NCBI RefSeq assembly: GCF_000332275.1
Contig: NZ_CM001776.1
Location: 3,718,008 to 3,782,007 of the forward strand
DNA length: 64,000 bases
Direction: 5' to 3'
From: Synechococcus sp. PCC 7336
Lineage (GTDB): Bacteria; Cyanobacteriota; Cyanobacteriia; Thermostichales; PCC-7336
Under the pieces are notes generated by a model. The model did no database searches and was not told where the DNA came from. It saw only the letters and a program-made list of their open reading frames with translations. Within the stretch, counting starts at the first letter, position 1. Each line of letters opens with the position of its first letter. The translations under genes were made by a program, and so were the position numbers. This document shows, one piece after another, positions 46,211 through 62,167 of this stretch.

Positions 46211-47932
46211 ATGGCAAAAGCAGTTGGCATCGATCTCGGTACGACCAATTCCGCCGTTGCGGTGGTGGAGGACAGCCAGCCCTGGGTGATACCGGATGGG
46301 GATGGCGAAGAACTCTTGCCCTCTTGCGTGGGCATGAGTGCGAATGGCAAGTTGCTGGTGGGACAGACAGCTTTGCGGCAATATGCCGCTGCCCCCGAAC
46401 GCACGATCAAGTCGATCAAGCGGCAGATGGGAACTGCACAGACCTCGAAGTTGGGCGATCGCGAGTATTTGCCTCAAGAAATTGCCGCCATTATCCTCAA
46501 GTCTCTCAAACAGCGAGCTGAAGAGACCTTGGGAGAAGAGATAGCGCAAGCGGTGATTACAGTTCCCGCTTACTTTACCGATGCACAGCGCCAAGCCACC
46601 AAGGATGCCGGAGAGATTGCCGGATTGGAGGTGCTGCAGATCCTGAACGAACCGACGGCAGCGGCACTGACGTACGAGTTGAATGCGGAAGAGACCGAAC
46701 AGGTGCTGGTATACGATCTGGGGGGCGGCACCTTTGACGTGTCGATTGTGGAAATTGCGGGGGATGTTACAGAGGTTTTGGCCAGCCACGGCAATAATCG
46801 CCTGGGAGGGGATGACTTCGATCGCCGCCTGCAGGTTTACCTGGCCGACCAGTTTCGCCAGACCCACAATATGGCAGTACCGGAAGATGCAACTACGCAA
46901 GCTCGCCTGTTGCAGGCGGCAGAGCGAGTCAAGCTCGATCTGAGCAGCAATGCTTTTGTCACCGTGCGGGAAGCCTTTTTAGCCAGTAAGGGCAAGACGG
47001 CGCTTCACTTAGAAACCGAGGTCTCGCGAGAGCGGTTTGAGGAGCTGATTGCGCCGTTGCTCTCGGAAACGCTAGGGGCGATCGATCGCGCTTTAGAAGA
47101 CGCCAAGTGCAAGGCAGAAGATTTAGATCGCGTCATTTTGGTGGGGGGCTCCACCCGTATCCCCTTGGTACAGCGATTGGTGGCAGAGCATTTGGGCCAA
47201 GACCCGATTGACAGCATCCAACCGGAGTTGTGCGTTGCCTTGGGGGCTGCCCTGCAGGCAGGCGTGCTGACCGGCGAAGCGGTGGATGCCATTTTGGTGG
47301 ATGTGATTCCCCACTCGCTGGGCATTTCCGTGGTGGAGGAAACGCCCATGGGGTACTTGCCGGGGCTATTCAGCAGCATTATTCCGCGCAATAGCGTGAT
47401 CCCCGTTTCCCGTTCCGAGGTGTATTCCACTGTGGCAGACGGCCAGAAAGCGGTGGAAATCGAAATCTTTCAGGGGGAGAACGCGATCGCCAAAGAAAAT
47501 GTGCCCCTAGGCTCGTTCATGGTGGAAGATTTGCCCAACAAACCAGCGGGGGAGCTGCAAGTGGAAGTGCATTTTGACTTTGACTTAAACGGCATCCTGA
47601 CGGTGACGGCGACTGAAAAGGGTAAGGGTCAGAAAGACACTTTAGTGGTGAACAATGCCGCCACTAGCCGCATGTCCAGCCACGATCTCAAGCAATCCAA
47701 ACTCGGGATCGATGCGCTTTTCGAGCTGGATGAGGATGATGTGGCAATGGCCGAACTGCTGGATGAGGCTTACGGGACTCTGGAGGGGCTGGAATCGGAT
47801 GCTGCTGCGAAGTTGCAGGCGGCGATCGTCAAGGTTGAAAAGGCGATGGAGGCGGATGAGGACGATCGAGTGGAGCAACTGCTAGAAGAATTAAAGACCC
47901 TGCTCGCCGAGCGTGAGACCTCTCCCGAATAA
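46211..47932 (+). CDS. Hsp70 (DnaK-like) chaperone, short form
   Basis: The 573-residue protein has the full actin-like ATPase domain: VGIDLGTTNSAVAVV, PAYFTDAQRQATKDAG, VYDLGGGTFDVSIV and VILVGGSTRIPLVQ. The substrate-binding beta-domain is recognisable (VIPVSRSEVYSTVADGQ, FDFDLNGILTVTA). The alpha-helical lid is much shorter than in DnaK (about 630-640 residues), and there is no EEVD-like tail. It forms the last gene of the TPR/J/GrpE/Hsp70 run. It is a specialised Hsp70, not the main DnaK2-type, by my reading. Confidence 0.88.
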   Translation: MAKAVGIDLGTTNSAVAVVEDSQPWVIPDGDGEELLPSCVGMSANGKLLVGQTALRQYAAAPERTIKSIKRQMGTAQTSKLGDREYLPQEIAAIILKSLKQRAEETLGEEIAQAVITVPAYFTDAQRQATKDAGEIAGLEVLQILNEPTAAALTYELNAEETEQVLVYDLGGGTFDVSIVEIAGDVTEVLASHGNNRLGGDDFDRRLQVYLADQFRQTHNMAVPEDATTQARLLQAAERVKLDLSSNAFVTVREAFLASKGKTALHLETEVSRERFEELIAPLLSETLGAIDRALEDAKCKAEDLDRVILVGGSTRIPLVQRLVAEHLGQDPIDSIQPELCVALGAALQAGVLTGEAVDAILVDVIPHSLGISVVEETPMGYLPGLFSSIIPRNSVIPVSRSEVYSTVADGQKAVEIEIFQGENAIAKENVPLGSFMVEDLPNKPAGELQVEVHFDFDLNGILTVTATEKGKGQKDTLVVNNAATSRMSSHDLKQSKLGIDALFELDEDDVAMAELLDEAYGTLEGLESDAAAKLQAAIVKVEKAMEADEDDRVEQLLEELKTLLAERETSPE

Positions 47933-48173: not shown

Positions 48174-49190
48174 TCAGTCCCATTGGATCGTGCCCAGACT
48201 GTCCAATAGTGCCCTGCCAAAATAGGACGGCGTCTGGAATCCCGCTGCAAAATTCCCGTTGAGAATTTTCGTCGCTATCTCTCGGAGGCAAAACGCTGTA
48301 AACAAATAGGCTTCCGGTCCCCGAAGCGAAACCGACCTCGATTCTGTCTCGTTTGCGGCGATCGCCATGACATAGGTGCTGCCTTGCTGCAATTGCCGTT
48401 CTGAAGGCCCTTCAGGCAAAAACCCGAGCAACTGATTCAAGATTAAATTGCGGAGCCACAATAGCCGCCCTCGCATCATCTGCACGATGAAGCCAGGAAA
48501 GACAGTGTAGGTCTGAATGTTGTCAATGCCTGTAGACAGCCCAGCCGTAAACAAATCAGCGCGCCAGGGATTGTAGACCCCCGTAAATGTTTTGCCCGCG
48601 ACCTCAAAATCCATACTCGATTCGGCCGGATGCGCAATGACCCATTCCCCATTAACCTTCCGTACCCCTGGCTGATTGATATTCTTCAGAACGGTCTTCA
48701 GCGTGCCGCGCGAAGCTCCCCCTTCTGTGGCGTAAAGGATCGTCAGCTTGGATGCCTTCGGCAGCAGCTCTTTAGCCATATAGGCCGCGATATCGGTGGG
48801 CACCACGCCAAAACCAGCCCCCGGCATCAGCATAATGCCTGCTCTCTTCGCCTCTGGCCCGAAGGTAAATGCCGATCGCATCTCGTCGACTTCGCCCGCA
48901 ATGTCAATATAGTGACATCTGGCAGCCAGACAGGCTGCGATCAAAGGCTTCTGCGTCCGCTGAAACGGGCCTGCCAGATTGACCGCCAGAGTCACGCCTG
49001 ACAGTTGGCGCTCAATTTCACTCTCATCCTCTAAGTTGAAGACCGAGGCTGGGCAGCCCAATTCCTGCGCAACGGCCCGAACGGTATCGCGACGGCCGGC
49101 CAAGATGGGTCGGAGCCCTTGTTTTACCATCTCCCTAGCACACAGCTTCCCCATGTAACCCGTGGCACCATAAATGAGCACATCAGCCAT
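48174..49190 (-). CDS. Saccharopine-dehydrogenase-like NAD(P)-dependent oxidoreductase
   Basis: The 338-residue protein begins with a Rossmann motif (VLIYGATGYMGKLCAREM; GxxGxxG at about 8-13), then ILAGRR, VNLAGPFQRTQKPLI and GAGFGVVPTDIAA. It belongs to the saccharopine dehydrogenase / trans-acting enoyl reductase group, often involved in lipid or polyketide tailoring. It is the last gene of the minus-strand oxylipin-like operon, and its start overlaps the SRPBCC gene by 8 bp. A role in reducing an oxylipin intermediate is inference. Confidence 0.82.
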   Translation of the reverse strand: MADVLIYGATGYMGKLCAREMVKQGLRPILAGRRDTVRAVAQELGCPASVFNLEDESEIERQLSGVTLAVNLAGPFQRTQKPLIAACLAARCHYIDIAGEVDEMRSAFTFGPEAKRAGIMLMPGAGFGVVPTDIAAYMAKELLPKASKLTILYATEGGASRGTLKTVLKNINQPGVRKVNGEWVIAHPAESSMDFEVAGKTFTGVYNPWRADLFTAGLSTGIDNIQTYTVFPGFIVQMMRGRLLWLRNLILNQLLGFLPEGPSERQLQQGSTYVMAIAANETESRSVSLRGPEAYLFTAFCLREIATKILNGNFAAGFQTPSYFGRALLDSLGTIQWD

Positions 49191-49608
49191 TTTCGACCCG
49201 TTCCTTTAGCAACTGGTTGTGCTGGATGAAGGCATCCTCCATCTTTTGCAGCATCGGCTTGCGAATGAATCCGCTGCCCGCGCCTCGGAAACATTCGCCA
49301 TGCAGGAGCTGGGTTGAGTTGCTGCTCGTTATCTCCAAGCGATAATAATGCTCGCCTGACAAGAACCAAGAGGCAAACCGTACACCCACCCAGGTCATCT
49401 CTCGATTCTCCTGAAACCGCTTGAGGGTGGCATGGAAGGAACGATCCAAGGGTTTGATGAACATTTGAATCCTCCCTTCGGGGCGGAGATCTCCCTCCAA
49501 CCAGCCAACAAGAGGATTCCACTCTGGATATGCCGAGAAATCTGTCAGCACTCTCCACACCCTTTCAGCCGAAGCGTTGATGGCGATCTCGGTGCGATAC
49601 TCCTTCAT
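49183..49608 (-). CDS. SRPBCC (START-like) ligand-binding protein
   Basis: The 141-residue protein begins at ATG 49608, with GGGGAGA upstream. INASAERVWRVLTDFSAYPEWNP is the classic SRPBCC/polyketide-cyclase-like opening, and the C-terminal long helix (KPMLQKMEDAFIQHNQLLKE) closes the hydrophobic cavity. Such proteins bind lipids or act as cyclases. It is flanked by lipoxygenase (16 bp) and the oxidoreductase (overlap), so a fatty-acid-derived ligand is plausible. Confidence 0.82.
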   Translation of the reverse strand: MKEYRTEIAINASAERVWRVLTDFSAYPEWNPLVGWLEGDLRPEGRIQMFIKPLDRSFHATLKRFQENREMTWVGVRFASWFLSGEHYYRLEITSSNSTQLLHGECFRGAGSGFIRKPMLQKMEDAFIQHNQLLKERVENG

Positions 49609-49624
49609 TCTCTCCCCTAGGGTA

Positions 49625-51277
49625 TCAAGTATTAATGCTGTTAATAATTTCAGATGGCAAGAAATACTGATAGGGGACCGGACGATGTTGATTTTCAATC
49701 TCGATCTTGCGTTCGATATCCGCTAGGTTTTGCTGGAATTGAACGAGGGCATCTTGGGCTAGAGGATCGGCAAAATCATCTTCGTAAAAGCCTAGCTTGT
49801 CGTGATGGTAAGAGGTCAAGACCATCGTCCAATACACTTGATCGGCCGCTTGTTTGTAGGGGGGTAGAAACTTCAGAATGGTTTCCATATCGATCCCCTT
49901 CTGCTCTGGTACCGGATGATATGCGGCGTAAGGCATATTGGGAACGAAGATCATGTATTCGTATTGAGTGAAGTTCAAGTTAGAATGCAGGGGAGCACAG
50001 GTGAAAATCACGACAGACAGGATATCGATCAGCTGCTGCAATGACTCAATAGTTTCGGGCATTCCCTTGACTCGACCGCTATCAAATGCTGCTAATTCTT
50101 TCGCCCAATTTTGTAGTTCGTAGTCCTCCCTAATATCCTCAGGGGTTTTGTAATAGATGCTGAGGTAATTGGTAATAAATTCCTTCACAGCATCCCAAAT
50201 CAACATGCCGTCATCTCTAAAGGGATAGTGGGGCAGCACCTCTGGGTCATCCATGTTTTGGCGCTCGATAATCGATGGGAAGTCAAAGGTATCAATACTC
50301 CAACGATCGAGGGTGTCGACCACAAAAGTAAGGGTTTCTTCGAGAGTTCCAGCCAAAAAGCGATCGACTGGACCGCCGGGGTTGAGAAACTGTGCCCGCC
50401 CCAAATCGTTATCAAACAGCATGAACTGGAAGTGAGGTTCTAATAACAGCGACACGGGATGGTTTTCAGCCAATTGCCGAGCAGTAACCATGGCAAACGG
50501 CCCCATGGCGGTGTGGGTGAAGGCAAAGTGGGAGCCTAATTCTTGATGGTTGGCGTCGGCGACTTGGACGCAGAGTTTGGCAAACAGCCAATCGAGGGGG
50601 GCATCTTTGGGAGTATAGACAATCGGGGTATTCGTGGCTTCGCTTTTGAGTTCGATCGCCACTGGCAAAAGAGCACCCCCCACTGGAGAGTCGTCACTTT
50701 TCCAATAGAACAGCGATCGCGTTTTGGGCATGTATTTGCGACCGTACTCCGATTCCCCTCCTTTGATGCGATTGAGATAGGGATGTTCCAGAAAATAAAG
50801 TCTACCTTCAGCTAAGGCTGCGTCGAGAGTTCCATCGGTCTCCAACACCTGCTGAAACAGAGCATTATCCACAGCAAAATCACTGGGAAGTTTTGCCAGT
50901 CGGCGCGTTGCCATGGCGTTGGCTCCCGACAGTCGCTGCTCCCCAAAAAATTCGTCAGTGCGATAGTTCTTCAGCAGATTGGGTTTAGATAGCAGAGGAA
51001 TCAGCTCCTCGTATTCTTCCAGGCTATCGAGGGGATCGAGAAAGCGCTTAGCTTTAGCAGCTAGCATATTAGCAGGCAGGTTAGCCATACTGGCGAGCCG
51101 TTTCGCGGTATATTCGGGTGAAAAATATTCCCGTTTTGGAACCTTCTGCATGAAGGGGAGAGGGGGTAATAGGCTGCGATCGAATTGATAATCCTCTCGG
51201 TTGCGCTCTAAATAATCATTGCGCTTGTTGGAGTTAGGATCCTTTTGTGGCAATGAAGGTCTGACAGCAGTATTCAC
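49625..51277 (-). CDS. Lipoxygenase
   Basis: This 550-residue non-heme iron dioxygenase adds O2 to polyunsaturated fatty acids to give hydroperoxides. The iron site is visible: H250 and H255 (SHFAFTH), and H431/N435 (HSNLN). The usual upstream conserved histidine is H244, one residue further away than in plant enzymes (Hx5H instead of Hx4H). The C-terminal residue, whose carboxylate completes the iron site and is normally Ile, is Thr here (ends IINSINT). There is no PLAT domain and no fused catalase domain; the catalase-like gene is separate in the same operon. Confidence 0.92.
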   Translation of the reverse strand: MNTAVRPSLPQKDPNSNKRNDYLERNREDYQFDRSLLPPLPFMQKVPKREYFSPEYTAKRLASMANLPANMLAAKAKRFLDPLDSLEEYEELIPLLSKPNLLKNYRTDEFFGEQRLSGANAMATRRLAKLPSDFAVDNALFQQVLETDGTLDAALAEGRLYFLEHPYLNRIKGGESEYGRKYMPKTRSLFYWKSDDSPVGGALLPVAIELKSEATNTPIVYTPKDAPLDWLFAKLCVQVADANHQELGSHFAFTHTAMGPFAMVTARQLAENHPVSLLLEPHFQFMLFDNDLGRAQFLNPGGPVDRFLAGTLEETLTFVVDTLDRWSIDTFDFPSIIERQNMDDPEVLPHYPFRDDGMLIWDAVKEFITNYLSIYYKTPEDIREDYELQNWAKELAAFDSGRVKGMPETIESLQQLIDILSVVIFTCAPLHSNLNFTQYEYMIFVPNMPYAAYHPVPEQKGIDMETILKFLPPYKQAADQVYWTMVLTSYHHDKLGFYEDDFADPLAQDALVQFQQNLADIERKIEIENQHRPVPYQYFLPSEIINSINT

Positions 51278-51360
51278 GATAACTTCCTCGAAAGATTGAC
51301 AAGCAATAAAAGTAAAGCTAGGGAAGAGAAAGAAATAACTAAAACGATAATTCTCCTCTC

Positions 51361-51807
51361 TTAGGAACCGGCAGTTGCGATTGTTTGAGGTCGATCTTGC
51401 ATAGCCATATACAGCAAAATCCCTTCAATAATGCCAAAGAATGAATCGACGACTGCAATGCTGAGGAATCCCAATTGTTGTCCGAAGAAGAGAACTGCAA
51501 TTAGGAAGAATGACGCGCCACCGCCACGAGTCACAAAAACCGACATCCAGGCAGTAGCTTCGTAGCGGTATGGATCGAGGGCTCCCGGGATATATAGGAT
51601 GCTGATTTCTAATAGTAGCAGGCCAGAACCCCGCACCCAGATAATTGGGTCTGGAATTTGCATGTGCAGCAGCGACAGCAAAAACTCCGGAAAGAAAAAC
51701 AGTGGAATGACAAAGAACATATTGGCTATAATGCCAAGCCACACCACTCGACCAAACCAAATGGCATAGGGATTGGTAATCTTTTCCGAACTAGAACTTG
51801 CAGTCAT
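51361..51807 (-). CDS. Small four-helix membrane protein
   Basis: The 148-residue protein has four hydrophobic segments (about 20-40, 58-75, 90-112, 115-135) and a short polar tail at each end. I do not recognise the family. It lies between the di-heme cytochrome (57 bp) and lipoxygenase (83 bp) genes in the same orientation, so it probably serves the same pathway, perhaps as a membrane anchor or transporter. No catalytic motif is seen. Confidence 0.6.
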   Translation of the reverse strand: MTASSSSEKITNPYAIWFGRVVWLGIIANMFFVIPLFFFPEFLLSLLHMQIPDPIIWVRGSGLLLLEISILYIPGALDPYRYEATAWMSVFVTRGGGASFFLIAVLFFGQQLGFLSIAVVDSFFGIIEGILLYMAMQDRPQTIATAGS

Positions 51808-51864
51808 GAAGCCATACTCCTAAGTGAAACTGCTTCTCGATCGCGATCGCTGATAAGCAAACCC

Positions 51865-53307
51865 CTACAGCATTTTGAGGTATTCGATCAGCGCCGTTTT
51901 ATCCTGAGTCGATAAATCTGTCCCATAAACGTGCCCCTGATTGCTATTGGCAGGCAGACTGGTGTCGTATCGAAATCCAGCTTTTTCAGCCTCGGGTCCG
52001 GTGGAGATAAATCCCATCTTGACGGGATCGTAAACATCGTAACCGCGATAGAACTCGGTGGGACGATTCTCGGGGCTTTCAAACAAATCCACCAGCGAGG
52101 GAACGGAACCGTTGTGCAGGTAGGGAGACCGCAACCACAAGCCGTCTAACGCAACACTCACGTAGCCATTGGTCTTGCGAATTTCTGTAAACTCCCAGTC
52201 ATATCCCTCGGAATAGGCCTTGTAAGCGTCTACCGCCTCTTGCGTCCACATATCTAGTCGGTGGCGATCGGTGCCAATTTCCTCAACTGGAATCACCGTG
52301 CCGGTGCGCTCGCCGCCAAATGCATGACAACTGGCACAGGAATTCTCAAAGATTAAGCTACCTGTCTCTGCCAATTGGGTATCGATCGCATAGGGATATG
52401 CTGGGGGCGGAACCTTGCGAATATAGTCTTCCACCCGCGCTATTCCCTCCACATCGAGAGATTTTTGGGTGGCACCATCCCCGAGTGCCCCTTCTAAAGC
52501 GGTTTCCGTCAGCGACGTTTCCAATCCATCCCAATGGAGGGCAAACCCTTCGTGCTGCTGCTCGTTCCACAGCGGCATCATGTCGGAGTTACCAATGGTG
52601 TCATCTATCGGCAACCCTAAAATTCTGAATTTGACTGGGTTAAAGGGGGCAATGCGACCGGGGCCTTGATCGGGGCGAACATCCATCCAGGAGAAGGATT
52701 CGTCGAAGTTCAACAGAATAGTTTTGGTGATGGGAATAATCAGGAATCGATAGAGTTGCTTGTCCAGCCAAGACAGGCCAGCCACATAGGAAATACCGTT
52801 GCTGCTATTCAAAATGTAATCGGCATTAAAGCGGGGATCGCGCGCGGAACTCCTCAGGAAATTGATGTATCCCTGCAGGTTAAATCGGCTGGAGGGACCA
52901 GTGTAGACAAAAGTGGGATTTTCCTCGGGGCTGTTACGGTAGGTGGCGGTGTGGCAGACGGCACAGGTAATGCCCTGACGGGGAAAGCCAATCACTTTTT
53001 TGGAAAACCCAATCGGCAGTTCTTCCCCTGGCTCCCAAGAAATGCCTAAAGAGGCATAGCCCCCCGGTCCGGGCAAATATTCGGGGAACAAGCGGGGCAA
53101 CACCAACCACATCCAGTAGGGCATACCATCGCGAGCTTCTGCCCCAATCGATCCATAGTTGAAATGTTGTTCTGGAGATGCGTAAAAGGTGGGCACTTCC
53201 CGCAGAAATTTAAACCACCCAACCCCCACTAATGTGCCGAGGAATAAAACCACCACCAAACCGATCGCCGTCAAGTTTTTACCGAATTTGCCGCTAAAAA
53301 TAGCCAT
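51865..53307 (-). CDS. Di-heme c-type cytochrome, RoxA/peroxidase-like (copy 1)
   Basis: The 480-residue protein starts at ATG 53307 (AGAGGAG upstream) with an uncleaved or cleavable N-terminal hydrophobic helix. There are two heme c sites, CAVCH in the N-terminal half and CASCH in the C-terminal half, plus RSPYLHNGSVPSLVDLFE and a final YGTDLSTQDKTALIEYLK. These match the MauG/CcpA-like and RoxA-like oxidoreductases. It is a close paralog of the next gene. Likely periplasmic or lumenal; it may oxidise a hydroperoxide or donate electrons. Confidence 0.82.
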   Translation of the reverse strand: MAIFSGKFGKNLTAIGLVVVLFLGTLVGVGWFKFLREVPTFYASPEQHFNYGSIGAEARDGMPYWMWLVLPRLFPEYLPGPGGYASLGISWEPGEELPIGFSKKVIGFPRQGITCAVCHTATYRNSPEENPTFVYTGPSSRFNLQGYINFLRSSARDPRFNADYILNSSNGISYVAGLSWLDKQLYRFLIIPITKTILLNFDESFSWMDVRPDQGPGRIAPFNPVKFRILGLPIDDTIGNSDMMPLWNEQQHEGFALHWDGLETSLTETALEGALGDGATQKSLDVEGIARVEDYIRKVPPPAYPYAIDTQLAETGSLIFENSCASCHAFGGERTGTVIPVEEIGTDRHRLDMWTQEAVDAYKAYSEGYDWEFTEIRKTNGYVSVALDGLWLRSPYLHNGSVPSLVDLFESPENRPTEFYRGYDVYDPVKMGFISTGPEAEKAGFRYDTSLPANSNQGHVYGTDLSTQDKTALIEYLKML

Positions 53308-53359
53308 AACCCGATCTCCTCTCATTACCTAGCTAGGCGCGATCGCCTACAGTCCTTTG

Positions 53360-53410
53360 ATTAAAGTCCTTTCATAATTAAAGTCCTTTCATAATTAAAG
53401 TCCTTTCATA
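53360..53410. repeat. Three perfect 17-bp tandem repeats at a stop codon
   Basis: ATTAAAGTCCTTTCATA occurs at 53360-53376, 53377-53393 and 53394-53410, with a partial fourth copy (CAGTCCTTTGA) just before. On the minus strand each unit repeats the last codons and TAA stop of cytochrome copy 2 (YMKGL-stop). It looks like slippage duplication of the gene end. Confidence 0.9.
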
Positions 53411-54819
53411 TATTCCACGAGAGCATCTTTCTCCTGTGGCGACAGATCGGTGCCGTACAGGTGACCGCTGTTACTGTTACCCGGTTTTGACGTGTCGTAT
53501 TCGAAGAAAGTCTTGCCATTTGCTGCCGGTACAGTGGAGACAAACCCCAGTTTGTTGCGATCGATAACGTCGTTGCCTCGATAGTAGACAGCGGGACGAT
53601 TCTCTGGCTTCTCCAACAAATCCCGCAGCGTCGGCACAGAGCCGTTATGCAGATAGGGAGCTCGCAGCCATACCCCATCTAGCGGCATATTGGCGTAGCC
53701 GTGGGTTTTACGGAAGGACTTGAACCGATCGGGATAGCCCGCATACAGGGTGTTCTGGTTGGACATCAATTCGTAGGTGTAGGAATCGAGTCGGTGGCGA
53801 TCGGTGCCAATTTCGCCAATGTCGTTGACGGTACCCACATATTCGCCACCAAATACGTGGCACTTGGCGCAGTTTTGCTCGAACAAGGGCTTGCCCGCCG
53901 CCGCGAGTTCTGCATCGATTTCGTAGGGATATTTGGGGGGTAACAGCTCCCACAGCCAGTCTGCCACCCGTCCAATCCCCTCGCGATCGACGGTGGTGGG
54001 GGTAACGCCAGCCCCCAATGCTGCACTCAAGTTGCGCTCGTCTACTGAGGTATTGTTGCCATCCCAGTGCAACTGCAAGCCTTCGCGGGGTTTCTGGTGC
54101 CAAATGGGGGGATAGTCGGAGGTACCGATAATTTCGCGATCGTCCAGCTTATCCATTGGGAAATTGAACTGGAGCGCCTTATAAGGGCTGAAGGTATCCA
54201 CCCGACCCGGTCCCCATTCCGGTTGTCGATTCAAAAAGCTCAAACGGCTGCCCTGCAAAATCAGCGCATCCCGAGTTTGAGGAATGGCGAGATAGCGGTA
54301 GAGCAACTTCTGCACCGGATGCAGATCCGCGCCCATCGCCTCGATATAGGGCATGATTTCTCGCGCTGTGAAACGGGGGTCTAGAGCAGCTTCGGAAATA
54401 AACCGAATATAGCCCTGCAAATACAAATTATTTGCCGGCATGGTGGAGATGAGTTGGGGAGCACTCTCCGCAGAGTCTCGTACCGTGCCCACATGACAAA
54501 CGGCGCAGTTGAGACCCACCCGGTTGATGCCAGTAATCTTGCGCTCGGAAAATCCGATGGGCAGATCGTGCCCCTCTTCGTATAAAAAACCGAGGGATTC
54601 GTAGCCTTCTCCAGGGAGTTTGTCAGCAAACACAGCAGGCATCGCCTTCCAGATCCAGTAGGGAATGCCATTCGCCGCTTCGCTGCCGATGGAACCGTAT
54701 TTAAAATGTTCGTCAATGTCGGCGTATTTGACGGGGCCGTTACCCAATAAAAACGGCGAGGCGAGGTATAGGATGGCGGCGATCGCAACTGCACCGATGA
54801 TGAGTCCGATTTTGCGCAA
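53395..54819 (-). CDS. Di-heme c-type cytochrome, RoxA/peroxidase-like (copy 2)
   Basis: The 474-residue paralog of the downstream gene has the same order of motifs: an N-terminal hydrophobic segment, EHFKYGSIGSEAANGIPYWIW, CAVCH, LQLHWDGNNTS, CAKCH, RAPYLHNGSVPTLRDLLE and YGTDLSPQEKDALVEYMKGL. The tandem duplication is old, as the two differ throughout. Together with copy 1 it may form a hetero-oligomeric electron-transfer unit beside the lipoxygenase. Confidence 0.82.
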   Translation of the reverse strand: MRKIGLIIGAVAIAAILYLASPFLLGNGPVKYADIDEHFKYGSIGSEAANGIPYWIWKAMPAVFADKLPGEGYESLGFLYEEGHDLPIGFSERKITGINRVGLNCAVCHVGTVRDSAESAPQLISTMPANNLYLQGYIRFISEAALDPRFTAREIMPYIEAMGADLHPVQKLLYRYLAIPQTRDALILQGSRLSFLNRQPEWGPGRVDTFSPYKALQFNFPMDKLDDREIIGTSDYPPIWHQKPREGLQLHWDGNNTSVDERNLSAALGAGVTPTTVDREGIGRVADWLWELLPPKYPYEIDAELAAAGKPLFEQNCAKCHVFGGEYVGTVNDIGEIGTDRHRLDSYTYELMSNQNTLYAGYPDRFKSFRKTHGYANMPLDGVWLRAPYLHNGSVPTLRDLLEKPENRPAVYYRGNDVIDRNKLGFVSTVPAANGKTFFEYDTSKPGNSNSGHLYGTDLSPQEKDALVEYMKGL

Positions 54820-54891
54820 GGTGGTGTCCTCAATGGGGTCTGAATAGGCTGATGGCTAGTGAGTCCATCCGTTTTAGAGATACAAACCGGC

Positions 54892-56451
54892 TCAGTCCCC
54901 CCCATCCGCATGGCTGGGAACGAACACTTTTGCCGTGGGCTCGAACACTGACATGACCTCGTCGTTTTTGGCCTTTAATGCCTCCTGGGCGGCTTCGCAA
55001 GCATCTGCTTGGCTCAGTCCTTGCACAGAACGCTGATAGAAGCGATCGATGGTGTGGCAGCCAACCGGCAATTCCAGATAGGCCCCGAGGCATTCATTGC
55101 AGTAGGTGCAGGGGCGATCGGAAATGTCTAGACCTTTGGCGAAATAGTTGTTCACCAGATCGTTATTGGCCACCAACATGCGGGCCATGCTGACGGCATC
55201 GGTGTATCCCTCCTGAATGGCTTTGTTGATGAAGGAAGCCTGCTGGAAACCGCCCGTAGTGATGATGGGAATTTCCTGCAACACTTCTTTGACCGCTTTG
55301 GCATCTCGCAACACCGTCCCCTGGTGGCGCTGCAGCAGGGCATTGACTTCCTCTGCCGAGACATGTTCTTGGAAAAACTTATCCAGCATGTCAGATGTAA
55401 TCTCGTTGCCGCTGAAGGGCTGTTTGTATTTGCTTCCCACTTTCTTCGGCAAGCGATTCCACAGCAGTTGAAACAGGGGGCGCAGGAACCTGTAGCGGAA
55501 GAGAAGGAAGTTGCGGAAGCTGGCGAATCCCCCACTGGAAACCATGGTGTCGTAGGTGTAGCGCAGCATCTCGAACGGAAAGGGACCGGAGGGCAAGAGT
55601 GGATGGGGGAAAGTGCTGCCTCGGGAGACGTGAATGGCATCGATGCCGTCTTCTTCCAGCCATTGACAGATCTGCAGGCTGTCATCGACGGAGTTTCCAG
55701 CATGCCCCCAGGGGGGAATAATGTTGTTGTATTCGCGGATGCTGATTTTGGCTTGAAAGTGGAAGTCGGAACCCACCACATTGCGAACGGCCCCAACAAT
55801 TTCTTTGAGGAACTGATAGCGACCCTTGAGGTCGCCGCCGTATTTATCGGTGCGGCGGTTGATGCCGGCACTGAGAAACTGGTTGATCAAATAGCCGTGG
55901 GAGCTGTGTAACTCGATCCCATCCAGCCCTGCCTCTTTCGCGCGCCCTGCAGCACTGGCAAAGTCCCGCACAATGTTCTCTACCTCAGCCAAGCTCATCA
56001 GATTGGCTGGCAACCCATTAATCTGATCCGCCTGCCCGGTCGTGCTGGGGGCAGGTTTGGGCTGAATGGCTTTCGATCTGGGATCGATGGTGGTATTCTC
56101 CACACCTTCAATGTCGCGCTGGCGACCCGAGTGACTGAGTTGAATGATGTATTTGCAACCGTGTTGGCGGACGGTTTCGCCAATTGTCTTCCAGAAGGGA
56201 ATCAAGCGATCTGCGTGAATCGTAGACACCTGGGGGGTAATGCGACCTTCGATCGAAACGGGGACGTAGGAAGAGATAATCGCCCCCACGCCCCCTTTGG
56301 CAAATTTGTTTTCCCAATTGACGCGAGCTTGGTTCCCCGAGCCGTCGTAGTTATCCCATCGACCCGTTACGCTGGAGCGAAAGACACGATTTTTAACCGT
56401 AAGATGGCGAAACTCAATCGGATCCAAAACAGTCTTGCTGTTGCTCATCAT
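54892..56451 (-). CDS. Old-yellow-enzyme-like flavin oxidoreductase with Fe-S motif and insertion
   Basis: The 519-residue protein has the NADH:flavin oxidoreductase TIM barrel: LSHSGR, GIELHSSHGYLINQFLS, NRRTDKYGG, SRGST and ITTGGF. A cysteine cluster C448xxC451xxC454 and C465 resembles the 4Fe-4S site of 2,4-dienoyl-CoA reductases. Between about 285 and 390 lies a roughly 100-residue insertion with an aromatic, membrane-like stretch (FASFRNFLLFRYRFLRPLFQ). Known relatives reduce activated C=C bonds, including the plant OPDA reductases of jasmonate synthesis. Here an oxidised fatty acid is the plausible substrate. Confidence 0.88.
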   Translation of the reverse strand: MMSNSKTVLDPIEFRHLTVKNRVFRSSVTGRWDNYDGSGNQARVNWENKFAKGGVGAIISSYVPVSIEGRITPQVSTIHADRLIPFWKTIGETVRQHGCKYIIQLSHSGRQRDIEGVENTTIDPRSKAIQPKPAPSTTGQADQINGLPANLMSLAEVENIVRDFASAAGRAKEAGLDGIELHSSHGYLINQFLSAGINRRTDKYGGDLKGRYQFLKEIVGAVRNVVGSDFHFQAKISIREYNNIIPPWGHAGNSVDDSLQICQWLEEDGIDAIHVSRGSTFPHPLLPSGPFPFEMLRYTYDTMVSSGGFASFRNFLLFRYRFLRPLFQLLWNRLPKKVGSKYKQPFSGNEITSDMLDKFFQEHVSAEEVNALLQRHQGTVLRDAKAVKEVLQEIPIITTGGFQQASFINKAIQEGYTDAVSMARMLVANNDLVNNYFAKGLDISDRPCTYCNECLGAYLELPVGCHTIDRFYQRSVQGLSQADACEAAQEALKAKNDEVMSVFEPTAKVFVPSHADGGD

Positions 56452-56625
56452 TCGTTATCCTTATTCAATTAAAACGGTAAGGATTGCGGTCCGTACTGAC
56501 CTCCAGAAGTCTCTAAAATTGCGATATGGCAGGCGATCGCCGAGACCGCCTCAGCTCGCTCCAGTATAAAGAAATAGCGATCGGACCACCTCACTGACAA
56601 TAGGGTGCGATTTGGAGATTGCCGT

Positions 56626-57552
56626 TTATTCATCTTTGAAACGTTGATGGCGGAAGAATAGCCGATAGTCTCCATAAAATGAAGATACGAATTTTGAAGT
56701 CGAGAGCAACTCTCCAATGGGTTTTGCCTTGTTGCGATACTCGTCTGAGTTTCCTTCGCTGTCACCTACCTCTCGCGGATCGACAGCATGCACGGTAAAT
56801 AACAGCGTATCGGGGGCGAGGGTTGCCAAGTCGTTTCTAAAGTCTCGACCGGATTCTTTTGGAAAGGCGATCGCGGGGTTGGGCACGAGAAAGAGTTCTC
56901 TGGGATAGATCGGCTGAGCAACCGTTTGTCCAAAGCGATCGACCTCCGCCAGATCTCGGACGTATAACTTGGTAGGATAGCGGGTCACCCTTCTAAAAAT
57001 GAGGTTGATCAGTCGAGGACCAATCTCATTCACAACTGGAACAATGGTGGAGAATTCATTCGCCAAGATATTGTGGTTATCCCCTTGACCGGTCAGCGAC
57101 ACCAGCGCGGAAAAGTTTTCCGAGTGCTTGCGATCCACAAACAGCTTGAGGGCTAGGCCCGGGGCAAAGGGGCGATCGGACGGATCGCGCGTGACGGAGA
57201 GTCTGATTAAGCCGTAGTCTGCTCCTGAAAAGACACCGGTAAAAGGATTCCCACTGGCGGCCACAAACTTAACTTTAGCAACAGCACCGTGGGCGTGAAT
57301 TGCCTTTTTCCAGTTTTTGGGGGCTTCATCCGCCTGCAGGTCCATTTTCTTGCTCAACGCCGTGAAAAACAGACCGGGAATGTCAATTTTTTCCAATGGA
57401 GGCAAGGAAGAATACTGAGACGGAAGAATCCTCTCCTGCCACAAAAATTCTTGTTTCTTCTGCGCACTCCACGACTGATAGTCCGAGGGCAGAGGATCGA
57501 ATTGCACCGGATTCTGCAGATATTGCTGCATTCTTTCTAGAAGGCCGGACAT
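56626..57552 (-). CDS. Catalase-like heme protein (y4iL-like)
   Basis: The 308-residue protein is about half the size of a catalase. KKAIHAHGAVAKVKF aligns with the catalase distal-histidine segment (VHAKGAGAFG), GLALKLFVDRKHSENF with the following strand, and QGDNHNILANEFST with the distal asparagine region. The C-terminal SFYGDYRLFFRHQRF recalls the R-x3-Y proximal ligand helix. Catalase-related proteins of this size in cyanobacteria and corals convert lipoxygenase hydroperoxides to allene oxides or related products, sometimes fused to a lipoxygenase. Being first in the lipoxygenase operon makes this role likely. Confidence 0.78.
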   Translation of the reverse strand: MSGLLERMQQYLQNPVQFDPLPSDYQSWSAQKKQEFLWQERILPSQYSSLPPLEKIDIPGLFFTALSKKMDLQADEAPKNWKKAIHAHGAVAKVKFVAASGNPFTGVFSGADYGLIRLSVTRDPSDRPFAPGLALKLFVDRKHSENFSALVSLTGQGDNHNILANEFSTIVPVVNEIGPRLINLIFRRVTRYPTKLYVRDLAEVDRFGQTVAQPIYPRELFLVPNPAIAFPKESGRDFRNDLATLAPDTLLFTVHAVDPREVGDSEGNSDEYRNKAKPIGELLSTSKFVSSFYGDYRLFFRHQRFKDE

Positions 57553-57621
57553 AATTTTCTTTTATTTTAAGGTTCTTGAAATCTTACTAAAAAAGTCTTT
57601 ACAGTTGGTAAGGCCCTCCTG

Positions 57622-57669
57622 CATTGCCAAGCAATGACTAAAGCTTAATCTGCAAAAGTTTTGTAAACT
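57622..57669. promoter_or_regulatory. Candidate operator dyads in the divergent promoter
   Basis: CATTGC-CAA-GCAATG (57622-57636) and AGTTT-TGT-AAACT (57657-57669, flanked by CTGCA and TGCAG-like bases) lie between the catalase-like and alpha-dioxygenase-like genes. They could be binding sites of a regulator controlling both. No regulator gene is adjacent. Seen by eye only. Confidence 0.35.
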
Positions 57670-57835
57670 GCAGGTCAGTTTTCACAATATTTGTAGGATA
57701 TCATTGACCCACAAACCGATCAAGTCATTGAAGGTTGCCCAGATCGAGTTATTGGCATTGACTCGATCGCATCTTTGGTTGATTCGTTTTTAGATTCTGC
57801 TTCATCTCGGTTGCGCTCTAGGATGATTTTTAATT

Positions 57836-59590
57836 ATGGCTAAACGCCCCTGGCACCAACAGCCACTTTTGTTTGCTCTGCTGAAGTTACGAGAGTTTCG
57901 CAATAATTTGCGTCGAGACAACTTACACGACACCTCTCAGTTTCCCGATCGCGACAAACTCCCCAAGCCTGCGGCGACGAATGGCAAGGGGCATTTAAAG
58001 GCCCGCACGCCCGATGGCAGTTACAACGATCCAGACAGTCCAGAAATGGGCATGGCAGGAACGCGCTTCGGTCGCAACGTACCGCTGGCCGATGCGTTTC
58101 CCGATAAAGACAAGCTGCTGACCCCCAATCCGCGCGTGTTGAGCCGCAAGCTGATGACGCGAGAGGAGTTTGTGCCGGCAACCATTGTCAACTTACTGGC
58201 TGCCCCGTGGATTCAGTTTCAAAACCACGATTGGATGTCCCACGGCGACAACCAGCCCAATAATAAAGTCGAAATTCCTTTGGAGGAAGACGATCCGTGG
58301 CCGCAGGAGCATCGGCCCCTTGCAATTAAGAAAACCTTAGAAGATGAATCCCGAGATCCGAACGACACTTCGAACCCGCCCAGCTTTATCAATGAAGTGA
58401 CCCACTGGTGGGATGGTTCCCAAATCTACGGCAGCGATCGCGAGACGGTTGAAAAACTGCGCTCCCACGTGGATGGCAAGCTAACGATCGAGGACAATGG
58501 CCTGCTGCCGCTCGATCCCGAGCTGGGCATCGATTCGACCGGGTTTAATGACAACTACTGGATCGGTCTGAGCCTTTTGCACACGCTGTTTGTCAAAGAG
58601 CACAATACCATTTGCGATCGCCTCAAGCAGAAATATTCCAACATGAGCGACGACGAGCTGTTCGACAAAGCTCGCCTGATTAATGCTGCCCTGATGGCCA
58701 AGATCCACACTGTCGAATGGACTCCGGCCATTTTGCCGCATCCAGCCACTGTGGCAGCTTTGAATGCCAACTGGTATGGATTGCTCGGTCAAAAATTCAA
58801 AAACTTCATCGGCCGCATTGGCGATAGCGAGGCCCTCAGCGGCATTATCGGTTCCTCCACCGACCAATTCGGTGCCCCTTATTACTTGACTGAGGAGTTT
58901 GTCTCCGTTTATCGCCTGCACCCCTTGATTCCCGATGACTATGATTTCCGTTCTTTAGATGGCGATCGTACTGTCCTCCAAAAAAACTTTTTCGAGATCT
59001 CCGGCAATCGTGCTCGAGCTGTGGTGGAACAGGTGGGCATGGACGATCTGTTTTACTCGTTTGGTACTGCCTATCCGGGAGCCATCACTCTGCACAACTA
59101 TCCCAAGTTTTTGCAGCAGTTCGCGAAGGATAATGGCGAAGTGTTCGACCTGGCTGCAGTCGATATTTTGCGCGATCGCGAGCGCGGCGTACCGCGATAC
59201 AACCGCTTCCGCGAGTTACTGGGTCGCGGCAAAGTGAAATCCTTTGATGAAATCACCAGCAATCCCACTTGGGCCAGCGAGCTTAAGGAGTTGTACAACA
59301 ACGACATCGATAGCATCGATCTGATGGTGGGCATGTTTGCGGAAGATCTGCCGGATGGCTTTGGCTTCAGCGACACTGCCTTTCGCATCTTTATTTTGAT
59401 GGCGTCGCGCCGCTTGAAGAGCGATCGCTTCTTCACCAAAGACTACACGGCGGAGGTCTACACCCAGTTGGGATTGGAGTGGATCGATAAGACCAGTATG
59501 CTGGACGTGCTCGAGCGCCACTATCCGGCCCTCGCCCCCTGTCTTGAAGGGGTGGAGAATGCCTTCGCCCCCTGGAAGCGGGCTGCGTAA
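57836..59590 (+). CDS. Heme peroxidase of the fatty-acid alpha-dioxygenase type
   Basis: The 584-residue protein belongs to the animal-type heme peroxidase / cyclooxygenase superfamily and is closest in motifs to plant alpha-dioxygenase. Distal histidine H131 is in QFQNHDWMSH. WWDGSQIYGSD, HNTICDRLK and AKIHTVEWTPAIL are shared features. EFVSVYRLHPLIP holds the catalytic tyrosine Y359 three residues before proximal histidine H362, the spacing used by alpha-dioxygenases. These enzymes add O2 to the alpha carbon of fatty acids. There is no signal peptide. It is divergent from the lipoxygenase operon across 283 bp. Confidence 0.88.
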   Translation: MAKRPWHQQPLLFALLKLREFRNNLRRDNLHDTSQFPDRDKLPKPAATNGKGHLKARTPDGSYNDPDSPEMGMAGTRFGRNVPLADAFPDKDKLLTPNPRVLSRKLMTREEFVPATIVNLLAAPWIQFQNHDWMSHGDNQPNNKVEIPLEEDDPWPQEHRPLAIKKTLEDESRDPNDTSNPPSFINEVTHWWDGSQIYGSDRETVEKLRSHVDGKLTIEDNGLLPLDPELGIDSTGFNDNYWIGLSLLHTLFVKEHNTICDRLKQKYSNMSDDELFDKARLINAALMAKIHTVEWTPAILPHPATVAALNANWYGLLGQKFKNFIGRIGDSEALSGIIGSSTDQFGAPYYLTEEFVSVYRLHPLIPDDYDFRSLDGDRTVLQKNFFEISGNRARAVVEQVGMDDLFYSFGTAYPGAITLHNYPKFLQQFAKDNGEVFDLAAVDILRDRERGVPRYNRFRELLGRGKVKSFDEITSNPTWASELKELYNNDIDSIDLMVGMFAEDLPDGFGFSDTAFRIFILMASRRLKSDRFFTKDYTAEVYTQLGLEWIDKTSMLDVLERHYPALAPCLEGVENAFAPWKRAA

Positions 59591-59681: not shown

Positions 59682-60806
59682 TCATTTAGGAGTCATAACG
59701 AGGTCTACTTCTCCTGGTTTCTTCGATGTGTCGCCATATAAGGCTGTCTGGGTCTGGCCTTTCACTGGGCGTTTTTCTTCTCGCAGCTCTTTATACGGAA
59801 AGGCTATCTGCAGTGCTTCGATAGTGGCAGAGAGCGTAAACTTACGGGCATCAGTACGGACTATAACCATAGAATCATCGCTCATGCGCTTGGCTGCTCC
59901 ACCGAACACGCTAGCCAGAAGTTCGCGGTAGTCTGACTGCGACTCGAATTTCCTCTGCCATCTACCCCCTCGACGTTTTGGCGAGGGGCGCTGACCAAGC
60001 ATCCATAGTCGTAGCCATTGGTCGCAATGGTAATTGGTGACACCATAATAGGGTGGCGATGTGAACAAGAGATCGAAGGGTTCTGTAATTGCTCGCCACT
60101 GGTAATTCGAACTGAGCAGACGAACACTGTCTCCAAGCAGAACATCTCCCACAAGTTCTGGTCTGCCCTTCTTGTATCGCCAAACGATCCGCTGCTCTAA
60201 AAAAGCAACTGGATCCACATCAGGTGGTCCCATTCCGCGCTCAGCCCACCACCGCACAGAATAATCAGGAGCCATCGCTTTACTATCCCGCATCTGATTC
60301 GATAGTGATGAAGAACGCCTACCGTGGAGGGAAACAAGGATAAACGCCATTAACGTGCGATCTACCTTGCTCTCACGAGCTCTCCATCGCAGACTCTCGC
60401 GAGCAGCCAGTAAGAAGCGCAACACGGCAGGGGAATAGGCCCACTCGAAGAATGTAGGTAAGTTTGCTCGCCCTATATCTATTCTCTCGAATTCGATCTC
60501 GCGCAGACGCTTAAGGACTCGTGCTTGAGTTGCTGGATGAAGCTTGACTGAGCTATATAGCCACCCCACGGGGTTGATTTCAATCCCGCATCCAGTGCGT
60601 CCCTTTGCTGCAGCGGCGAATATACTGGACCCTCGACCCACAAATGGATCGAGAATGCGGTCACCAGGCTGCGTATAAGTTTCGATTACATCATATGCGA
60701 AGTCCAGCGGAAACATCGCGTAGTAAGGACCGACTCCGGCCCAGCGGTCTATGGCTGTCTGAAATTTACGCGGTCGGCGTTTTGGAATATCAATATTGAC
60801 CTCCAT
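59682..60806 (-). CDS. DNA methyltransferase of the HerA/NurA cassette
   Basis: The 374-residue protein has the SAM-binding motif I DPFVGRGSS at about residue 53-61, preceding the catalytic motif IV TSPPYYGVTNY around 240-255, so the order is I then IV. It is an amino (N4-cytosine or N6-adenine) methyltransferase of unknown specificity. The ATG at 60806 overlaps the NurA stop (TGATG). Co-transcribed downstream of HerA and NurA, it probably marks self DNA so that the nuclease spares it. Confidence 0.88.
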   Translation of the reverse strand: MEVNIDIPKRRPRKFQTAIDRWAGVGPYYAMFPLDFAYDVIETYTQPGDRILDPFVGRGSSIFAAAAKGRTGCGIEINPVGWLYSSVKLHPATQARVLKRLREIEFERIDIGRANLPTFFEWAYSPAVLRFLLAARESLRWRARESKVDRTLMAFILVSLHGRRSSSLSNQMRDSKAMAPDYSVRWWAERGMGPPDVDPVAFLEQRIVWRYKKGRPELVGDVLLGDSVRLLSSNYQWRAITEPFDLLFTSPPYYGVTNYHCDQWLRLWMLGQRPSPKRRGGRWQRKFESQSDYRELLASVFGGAAKRMSDDSMVIVRTDARKFTLSATIEALQIAFPYKELREEKRPVKGQTQTALYGDTSKKPGEVDLVMTPK

Positions 60807-62164: not shown

Positions 62165-62167
62165 CGG

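Follow-up and report, generated by a model that had tools for sequence, protein, structure and literature searches.

What is the purpose of a bacterial gene cluster that encodes two different fatty-acid dioxygenases together with a catalase-like protein, a flavoenzyme and a pair of cytochromes? Such a combination is found in the chromosome of Synechococcus sp. PCC 7336, where nine genes, eight on the minus strand and one divergent (Table 1), occupy positions 48174–59590 of the window, i.e. of the whole stretch of 64,000 nucleotides that was analysed. To our knowledge, no more than a handful of enzyme pairs have been described for bacterial oxylipin pathways.

Layout of the locus

The open reading frames, strands and spacing reported for this region in an initial annotation match our re-reading, and its protein families (Sacchrp_dh_NADP, SRPBCC, Lipoxygenase, di-heme cytochromes, OYE and An_peroxidase) were recovered by profile searches. 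Neighbouring minus-strand genes overlap by 8 bp at one extreme (SDR/SRPBCC) and lie 174 bp apart at the other (CAT-OYE). Since convergent genes flank the cluster on both sides, the borders proposed initially are the natural ones. For the SRPBCC protein, the ATG at 49608 is a more likely start than the TTG at 49698, with which the reading frame opens.

Table 1. Genes of the cluster, its presumed control region and its neighbours (positions within the window)
Feature	Position	Strand	Evidence or remark
DnaK-like protein, left neighbour	46211–47932	+	convergent with the cluster
SDR, saccharopine-dehydrogenase-like NADP reductase, 338 aa, last gene of module A	48174–49190	-	PF03435, E 5.5e-10
SRPBCC/polyketide-cyclase-like small protein, ~141 aa	49183–49608	-	PF10604 (Polyketide_cyc2), E 1.1e-11
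LOX, mini-lipoxygenase without PLAT domain, 550 aa	49625–51277	-	PF00305, E 1.9e-56
MEM, small membrane protein, 148 aa	51361–51807	-	hydrophobicity
CYT1, RoxA-like di-heme cytochrome c	51865–53325	-	PF21419, E 8e-13; NF040606 above cut-off
CYT2, RoxA-like di-heme cytochrome c	53395–54819	-	PF21419, E 2e-16; NF040606, 180 bits
OYE-type flavoenzyme, 519 aa	54892–56451	-	PF00724, E 1e-58; NCBIfam
CAT, catalase-fold-like protein, 308 aa	56626–57552	-	fold model, short motifs, pairing with alpha-dioxygenase
Divergent CAT/alpha-dioxygenase intergenic region, 283 bp, presumed shared control region	57553–57835	.	sequence read
Fatty-acid alpha-dioxygenase (alphaDOX), 584 aa, heme peroxidase-cyclooxygenase superfamily	57836–59590	+	PF03098 (An_peroxidase), E 3.6e-117
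DNA methyltransferase, right neighbour	59682–60809	-	convergent with the cluster

The cluster consists of two joined modules: module A, comprising the OYE, the two RoxA-like di-heme cytochromes, the membrane protein, the lipoxygenase and the SDR, and module B, comprising the alpha-dioxygenase and CAT. A scan for promoters and terminators, which covered the intergenic region between CAT and the alpha-dioxygenase, yielded matches at chance level, with nothing above it. The two-module structure had been missed in the initial annotation.

The modules in other genomes

Conserved synteny had been suggested as a check of the proposed fatty-acid dioxygenase cluster, and it was found in abundance: the genes are co-inherited, and parts of the cluster recur in cyanobacteria and in unrelated bacteria. 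In a single Nostocaceae-like genus, each of the 20 complete loci that were examined groups the genes for OYE, CYT2 and CYT1. Twelve of these loci, each from a different genome, contain a lipoxygenase (type i, with the order OYE-CYT2-MEM-CYT1-LOX-(ABM)-SDR), while in the other eight genomes the lipoxygenase is replaced and a catalase-like/GMC variant is found (type ii, OYE-CYT2-CYT1-MEM-like-CAT-like-GMC; in both of the loci that were read completely, the MEM-like and CAT-like parts are fused into one ORF). An SDR orthologue (42–44%) occupies the same end of the operon in 11 of the 12 type-i loci, the twelfth being cut by a contig end, and in the related operon of genome G125 an ABM-domain protein takes the position of the SRPBCC protein. 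Rhizobium plasmids carry OYE-CYT2-MEM-CYT1-cytochrome-GMC-patatin, with the core order OYE-CYT2-MEM-CYT1 kept, and the same order is found on a plasmid of S. fredii, where the patatin position is unannotated. OYE-CYT-GMC-patatin genes are also present in R. johnstonii 3841. MEM has no family match in profile searches and, judging from hydrophobicity, probably spans the membrane four times; its relatives in module A were identified in G125 (62%), Rhizobium (44%) and Qingshengfaniella (32%). In the neighbourhoods of 20 other cyanobacterial lipoxygenase genes, the remaining families of the cluster were absent, apart from a distant DnaK gene in one case, which argues that the linkage is specific to one lipoxygenase subclade. 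The association of OYE and the cytochromes in the 20 loci, 12 of them with the lipoxygenase, and the order kept with MEM on the rhizobial plasmids are more than chance. The type-ii and rhizobial operons possess neither the lipoxygenase nor the alpha-dioxygenase, suggesting that the OYE/cytochrome core may have a chemistry of its own.

Of module B, the alpha-dioxygenase and CAT constitute one fused gene in Alcanivorax; CAT adjoins the alpha-dioxygenase in G278 and lies near it in Calothrix PCC 6303. There are also alphaDOX-CAT-GMC-patatin clusters, whose GMC protein is 41% identical to that of Rhizobium. Rhizobium phaseoli and the cyanobacterium G412 encode fusions of the alpha-dioxygenase with a true catalase domain, in the domain order opposite to that of Alcanivorax, and these fusions adjoin a RoxA-like cytochrome. 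Further links between the modules are provided by a lipase-OYE-MEM-like-alphaDOX arrangement in G080 and by Qingshengfaniella, where the alpha-dioxygenase is divergent from MEM-CYT-hydrolase. A 301-aa neighbour of the Qingshengfaniella alpha-dioxygenase was considered as a CAT candidate and rejected, as it is not CAT-like. In genus g22 the OYE-cytochrome and alpha-dioxygenase modules occur together in none of 53 genomes (about 5 expected), which indicates that neither module needs the other. Patatin or class-3 lipases encoded beside the relatives point to acyl lipids. Neither a lipase nor a GMC gene lies in the cluster of Synechococcus sp. PCC 7336 itself, and a search of the genome of this strain with the Calothrix GMC gave no match. 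In the open-licence literature we found no description of the cluster, of a catalase-like partner of alpha-dioxygenase, or of alphaDOX-catalase fusions.

Catalytic residues and relationships of the enzymes

The lipoxygenase possesses the iron ligands His, His, His and Asn (H250, H255, H431 and N435), and the solved structure closest to it is that of Cyanothece CspLOX2 (5MED, E 1e-119, a full-length mini-LOX). CspLOX2 is an 11R-bis-allylic enzyme, and its Leu258, Ile296, Ala300, Leu304 and Leu502 are replaced in the window protein by Phe251, Asp289, Gly293, Phe297 and Trp483, respectively. Members of the lipoxygenase family typically end with Ile, the carboxylate of which is an iron ligand; the protein analysed here ends with Thr550, and Thr is found in this position in 12 of 12 type-i operons, as opposed to Ile, Val or Met in 29 other lipoxygenases. 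As the terminal carboxylate is still there and the PF00305 match is far above the cut-off, we classify this protein as belonging to an atypical subclade within the family. The F/D/G/F/W clamp combined with the C-terminal Thr occurs in every operon copy and in none of the 29 others, and the operon lipoxygenases accordingly form, by sequence, a distinct subclade with a predicted remodelled active site. Plain linoleate or linolenate may therefore not be the substrate. The operon-specific enzyme represents a natural variant at the exact positions that set regio- and stereochemistry.

The alpha-dioxygenase aligns with its rice and Arabidopsis counterparts with E-values of 1e-118 to 1e-124, versus only ~1e-13 for COX. 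The catalytic Tyr, the proximal and distal His and the substrate-site residues His311, Trp315, Thr316 and Arg559 (rice numbering) are all aligned as identical, and their roles, as well as the activity of cyanobacterial enzymes of this family, have been established (PMC8720084). The initial assignment of this peroxidase to the alpha-dioxygenase type is thus supported by the full set of catalytic residues, and a fatty-acid substrate is predicted. The protein is 66% identical to the enzyme from Calothrix PCC 6303, which is probably CalDOX, given that the residue numbering agrees with the published one; with CalDOX, LepDOX and the rice and Arabidopsis enzymes it has in common the family, the size, the catalytic Tyr, the His pair and the carboxylate-binding His and Arg. 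Nostoc punctiforme possesses a linoleate 10S-dioxygenase and a catalase-related 10S-hydroperoxide lyase (Brash 2014, as related in PMC13049297). As far as that pair is described there, its dioxygenase is COX-like, in contrast to the alpha-dioxygenase of the window, and its lyase belongs to another family than CAT, which lacks the proximal tyrosine. The COX score given above led us to reject the window protein as a 10S-dioxygenase of this kind.

CAT gave no match in Pfam, NCBIfam, PDB phmmer or PDB profile searches, nor did hhalign match it to the true catalase domain present in the fusions from R. phaseoli and G412. Its structure model is of moderate confidence (mean pLDDT 62), and the 50 listed VIA matches to this model are all catalases or catalase-fold proteins, with Z-scores of 8.1–9.1, near the warning level of the tool. 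His86 sits in an IHxxG motif, like the distal His of catalases, while the C-terminal part exhibits neither a conserved Tyr nor the R-x-x-x-Y motif found on the proximal side in catalases and allene oxide synthases (AOS). In this part, no candidate other than His302 is invariant, and sequence comparison revealed no demonstrable heme ligand. The fold model and the short motifs suggest a possible kinship with catalases, and the label ‘catalase-like’ finds no counterpart in sequence or profile matches. In corals, a catalase-related AOS, i.e. a catalase-fold domain, is fused to an 8R-lipoxygenase, the dioxygenase making its substrate, and the fusions described above would resemble it in this respect. 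The partner in the relatives studied here is, however, the alpha-dioxygenase, in both domain orders, and no fusion to a lipoxygenase was seen, which argues against the initial view of CAT as a lipoxygenase partner. Remote CAT relatives in G019 and G191 are encoded near a LOX-like gene. The alphaDOX-catalase fusions offer a testable hypothesis, namely that a second enzyme governs what becomes of the unstable 2-hydroperoxide.

The OYE exhibits a C-x2-C-x2-C-x10-C motif of the Fe-S type after the barrel, conserved in all six proteins compared, and lacks the C-terminal FAD/NAD domain. Its best NCBIfam models are bilirubin reductase, NamA and the BaiCD type, not OPR. As OPR is a classical OYE without an Fe-S cluster, 12-oxophytodienoate reductase was rejected as an identity for this protein.

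Both cytochromes, confirmed as di-heme proteins and found to be RoxA-like, carry an N-terminal membrane anchor and two heme motifs (CAVCH at 121 and CASCH at 330 in CYT1; CAVCH at 105 and CAKCH at 317 in CYT2). They score 167 and 180 bits with NF040606, a di-heme cytochrome c peroxidase subfamily with a cut-off of 150 bits. The alignment with RoxA comprises both CxxCH motifs, the PYLHNGSVP MauG motif and the equivalents of Trp302 and His641. Of the distal residues of the rubber oxygenases, Phe301 is replaced by an invariant His and Phe317 is aligned either with a gap or with Ala, and the curated RoxA/RoxB models yield only 53–64 bits against cut-offs of 900–1000. The oleate diol synthase of Pseudomonas aeruginosa, PA2077/PA2078 (FadCcp), is likewise a tandem RoxA-like di-heme pair, which acts on fatty acids to make oxylipins (PMC4496055). 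The published description nevertheless sets it apart, because Phe301 of RoxA corresponds to Gln in both Pseudomonas proteins (PMC4496055), the hemes are spaced by 235–245 residues versus ~209–212 here, and the operon company differs. The AlphaFold model of CYT2 (pLDDT 45) was not used. The initial annotation had noted neither the RoxA kinship nor the link to the Pseudomonas enzymes.

A putative oxylipin pathway and its alternatives

We consider it probable that the cluster encodes a modular pathway of fatty-acyl oxidation, i.e. of oxylipin synthesis. While the families, catalytic residues, and linkage and fusions across phyla can be read from the sequences, the chemistry and its order are inferred. 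A lipase, present in the clusters of relatives and absent here, would free the acyl chain, and the alpha-dioxygenase would add O2 at C2 to give a 2-hydroperoxy acid, which would otherwise lose CO2 to become the Cn-1 aldehyde. CAT may steer or reduce the 2-hydroperoxide, and the operon-type lipoxygenase may add O2 at another site, its substrate perhaps being an unusual chain or one that already bears oxygen. CYT1 and CYT2, anchored in the membrane on its outer or lumenal side, could act on the peroxidised chain by oxygenation, isomerisation or reduction, as suggested by the action of their distant relatives PA2077/PA2078; MEM could link the two membrane faces, OYE could reduce an activated C=C bond, and the SDR and SRPBCC proteins could finish or carry the product. 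The latter is probably an oxylipin that is excreted or resides in a membrane and serves in signalling or defence, and not a cyclopentenone of the jasmonate type. Against this scheme, which rests on sequence comparisons, stand the lipoxygenase clamp, so different that one cannot be sure of a plain fatty-acid substrate, the lack of a demonstrable heme ligand in CAT, the missing lipase and GMC genes, the separability of the modules in g22, and the type-ii and rhizobial operons devoid of both dioxygenases.

More tentatively, the locus might belong to a bacterial oxylipin system not described before, built of modules and shared horizontally. In it, alphaDOX/catalase-fold pairs would work with periplasmic di-heme enzymes of the RoxA-like kind and with a membrane protein dedicated to the system, and the lipoxygenase subclade with its Asp/Phe/Trp-lined pocket and C-terminal Thr would act on a non-classical lipid to yield a new product class. 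If true, this would be a recurring oxylipin gene set common to cyanobacteria, rhizobia and marine gammaproteobacteria, and a biological pathway for bacterial alpha-dioxygenases, hitherto studied mainly as biocatalysts.

Or perhaps the cluster serves to detoxify lipid hydroperoxides, with the cytochromes acting as peroxidases that draw on those of photosynthesis, CAT and OYE clearing hydroperoxides and enones, and the dioxygenases clearing free fatty acids? The NF040606 scores, the retained Trp between the hemes and the His adjacent to it, the reduction of reactive enones by OYEs and the fold model of CAT would fit, but we regard this as unlikely, as the gene set includes two dedicated hydroperoxide-forming enzymes and would make hydroperoxides rather than only remove them, the lipoxygenase subclade is specialised, and lipases are found beside the relatives. 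Somewhat less likely still is a transformation of isoprenoids, sterols or carotenoids, with RoxA-like C=C cleavage, OYE and GMC acting on terpenoids and co-oxidation by the lipoxygenase; it agrees with the RoxA kinship, the best OYE models, the GMC of type-ii operons and the remodelled lipoxygenase pocket, and it conflicts with the loss of the distal Phe residues of RoxA and with the patatin/lipase partners and the alpha-dioxygenase, which favour acyl lipids. Finally, the jasmonate-like cascade of the initial annotation (LOX, then AOS, then OYE/OPR, giving a cyclopentenone), although prompted by the presence of a lipoxygenase, a catalase-fold-like protein and an OYE in one operon, is highly improbable, since CAT is bound by fusion and neighbourhood to the alpha-dioxygenase and lacks the proximal Tyr motif, the OYE has the conserved Fe-S-type Cys motif and is unlike OPR, and type-i operons retain the lipoxygenase and OYE without CAT.

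Gene content of the cluster

The window, which spans C1:3718008-3782007 of the complete 5.07-Mb genome of a cyanobacterium from the class that includes Calothrix PCC 6303, contains the layout proposed in the initial annotation: eight genes on the minus strand plus a divergent one on the plus strand, encoding a saccharopine-dehydrogenase-type reductase (SDR), an SRPBCC protein, a lipoxygenase (LOX), a small membrane protein (MEM), two cytochromes (CYT1 and CYT2), an OYE reductase, a catalase-fold-like protein (CAT) and a heme peroxidase (alphaDOX). The borders are clear, because the flanking genes on both sides are convergent. Pfam bore out the families suggested earlier for LOX, SRPBCC, SDR, OYE and the peroxidase, and it identifies the paired di-heme cytochromes as RoxA-like; family searches gave no meaningful match for MEM and CAT.

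Along its entire length the peroxidase aligns with the alpha-dioxygenases of rice and Arabidopsis (E 1e-118 to 1e-124); its similarity to cyclooxygenases is weak (E about 1e-13). In the alignment it keeps the catalytic Tyr, both the proximal and the distal His, and the His/Trp/Thr and Arg that position the carboxylate (residue roles from PMC8720084). Its relative on a Calothrix PCC 6303 plasmid (66% identity) is, judging from the sequence, very probably CalDOX, the published cyanobacterial alpha-dioxygenase acting on C10-C14 fatty acids, since V18, R22, H131, H290, W294, T295, F354, H361, F519, F522 and R529 sit exactly at the reported positions.

According to the alignment, CYT1 and CYT2 share with RoxA both heme sites, Trp302, the MauG motif and His641, but Phe301 of RoxA is replaced by an invariant His in cluster-type cytochromes. 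They score above the cut-off of the di-heme cytochrome c peroxidase subfamily; identity with the rubber oxygenases RoxA/RoxB was rejected (below model cut-off), as was identity with FadCcp (PA2077/PA2078), whose published Gln signature (PMC4496055) they lack. OYE exhibits a conserved C-x2-C-x2-C-x10-C motif resembling that of Fe-S flavoenzymes, but their C-terminal domain is absent from it.

The moderate-confidence fold model of CAT (mean pLDDT 62) finds catalases or catalase-fold proteins as its best structural matches (Foldseek; Z 8.1-9.1). A His is retained in the catalase-like distal motif, but the motif check found no proximal R-x-x-x-Y, and His302 is the sole invariant candidate ligand near the end of the protein, so CAT, earlier labelled a heme protein, is at most a putative one.

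Two modules in other genomes

A synteny check, of the kind proposed in the initial annotation, revealed recurrent linkage of the cluster families in the Nostocaceae-like genus g22 and on rhizobial plasmids. CYT2 has a match in 25 of 53 g22 genomes, and 20 complete loci display two architectures. Twelve read OYE-CYT2-MEM-CYT1-LOX-SDR (one reaches the contig end before SDR), and in genome G125 an ABM protein occupies the SRPBCC position; in the remaining eight, a MEM relative comes after OYE-CYT2-CYT1. In the two loci of this second type that were read completely, the MEM relative forms a fusion with a CAT relative, and a GMC oxidoreductase comes next. Rhizobium and Sinorhizobium fredii plasmids keep the order OYE-CYT2-MEM-CYT1 and continue with a large cytochrome and GMC, with a patatin phospholipase next in Rhizobium. 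The two rhizobial cytochromes group with CYT2 and CYT1, respectively (tree, moderate support), which indicates that the duplicated pair is old.

The proposal that the catalase-like protein is the partner of LOX was not borne out; CAT relatives are instead fused to or located near alphaDOX. Of ten Alcanivorax/Pseudomonadales loci, nine encode the two as a single 915-residue protein, and the open frame of the tenth is shorter. The order alphaDOX-CAT-GMC-patatin, with CAT directly after alphaDOX, is found in two genomes (G278, G399); Calothrix PCC 6303 has this order too, with alphaDOX and CAT separated by a transposase gene. As an independent case, in R. phaseoli and the cyanobacterium G412 a true catalase domain (PF00199 above cut-off, R-x-x-x-Y present on inspection) is fused to the alphaDOX N-terminus, adjoining a membrane protein, a RoxA-like cytochrome and a common protein of ~450 residues. 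The existence of two fusion types with opposite domain orders argues strongly that proteins of the catalase fold act on, or protect, the alphaDOX product.

Mixed arrangements also occur: lipase-OYE-MEM-like-alphaDOX in genome G080, and alphaDOX divergent from FAD-oxidase-MEM-CYT-hydrolase-EthD in Qingshengfaniella; the R. phaseoli and G412 loci also bring the two modules together. The GMC proteins of the Calothrix alphaDOX cluster and the Rhizobium OYE-cytochrome operon are 41% identical. Among the 53 g22 genomes, strong alphaDOX matches occur in 11, strong CYT2 matches in 24 and both in none, with about 5 expected (hypergeometric P 0.0005, uncorrected for ancestry; genus-level counts ignore phylogeny). 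The alphaDOX and OYE-cytochrome modules may be alternative routes, combined in the window organism.

Lipoxygenase pocket and proposed pathway

The closest solved structure to LOX is Cyanothece CspLOX2, whose product-determining clamp comprises Leu258, Ile296, Ala300, Leu304, Leu502 and Leu506 (PMC5437038). All operon LOX have Phe, Asp, Gly, Phe, Trp and Leu at these positions and a C-terminal Thr; Leu258, Leu304 and a terminal Ile/Val/Met are kept in 29/29 other cyanobacterial LOX, including the second LOX of the same genome. The neighbourhoods of 20 non-operon cyanobacterial LOX genes did not contain the rest of the cluster. Gly at position 300 is the R-type determinant, and the pocket Asp is the strangest change; the substrate may therefore be polar or pre-oxygenated.

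The cluster probably encodes a fatty-acyl oxidation pathway, in which alphaDOX and LOX would dioxygenate a fatty-acyl substrate, CAT and the di-heme cytochromes would handle the hydroperoxides, OYE would reduce a C=C bond, and SDR and SRPBCC would perform finishing steps. For the first steps we rely on the established chemistry of the families; we infer the step order, partners and product. That the cluster serves detoxification appears unlikely, and a role in isoprenoid chemistry very unlikely. A jasmonate-like cascade is hardly credible.

Coordinates of the cluster and of further loci
Feature	Location	Remarks
Nine-gene cluster	window 48174-59590	
DNA methyltransferase, NurA-like protein, HerA-type ATPase in a row	window 59682-63979	beside cluster; MTase_II and HerA matches; NurA-like is our reading; possibly a phage-defence island
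Second, ordinary LOX, same genome	L021:8501-10426 (C1 about 1355500-1357425)	641 aa, ends SINI; no cluster partners nearby
Fatty-acid-desaturase-like gene	L021:5507-6598	~2 kb from second LOX
Heme-peroxidase-family ORF, same genome	C1:3062839-3064299 (L040, L051)	807 aa open frame; distant alphaDOX relative
Catalase-alphaDOX fusion, membrane protein, RoxA-like cytochrome, ~450-aa protein	L180:7625-14345 and L169:4927-11443	four-gene set, G412 and R. phaseoli
alphaDOX with fused N-terminal membrane domain, G407	L181:1633-4404	neighbours: a patatin and a further member of the ~450-aa protein type of R. phaseoli and G412
Large cytochrome of the rhizobial operons and a similar cytochrome beside the cyanobacterial operon	L162:12312-15101, L067:3625-5655	rhizobial protein with two CxxCH motifs; the similar one has 676 aa and lies divergently upstream of the operon in G125 and G409; absent from window cluster
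CYT1-like gene beside CYT2, G211	L068:9392-9988	shortened to 198 aa, without CxxCH motifs; probably a decaying copy
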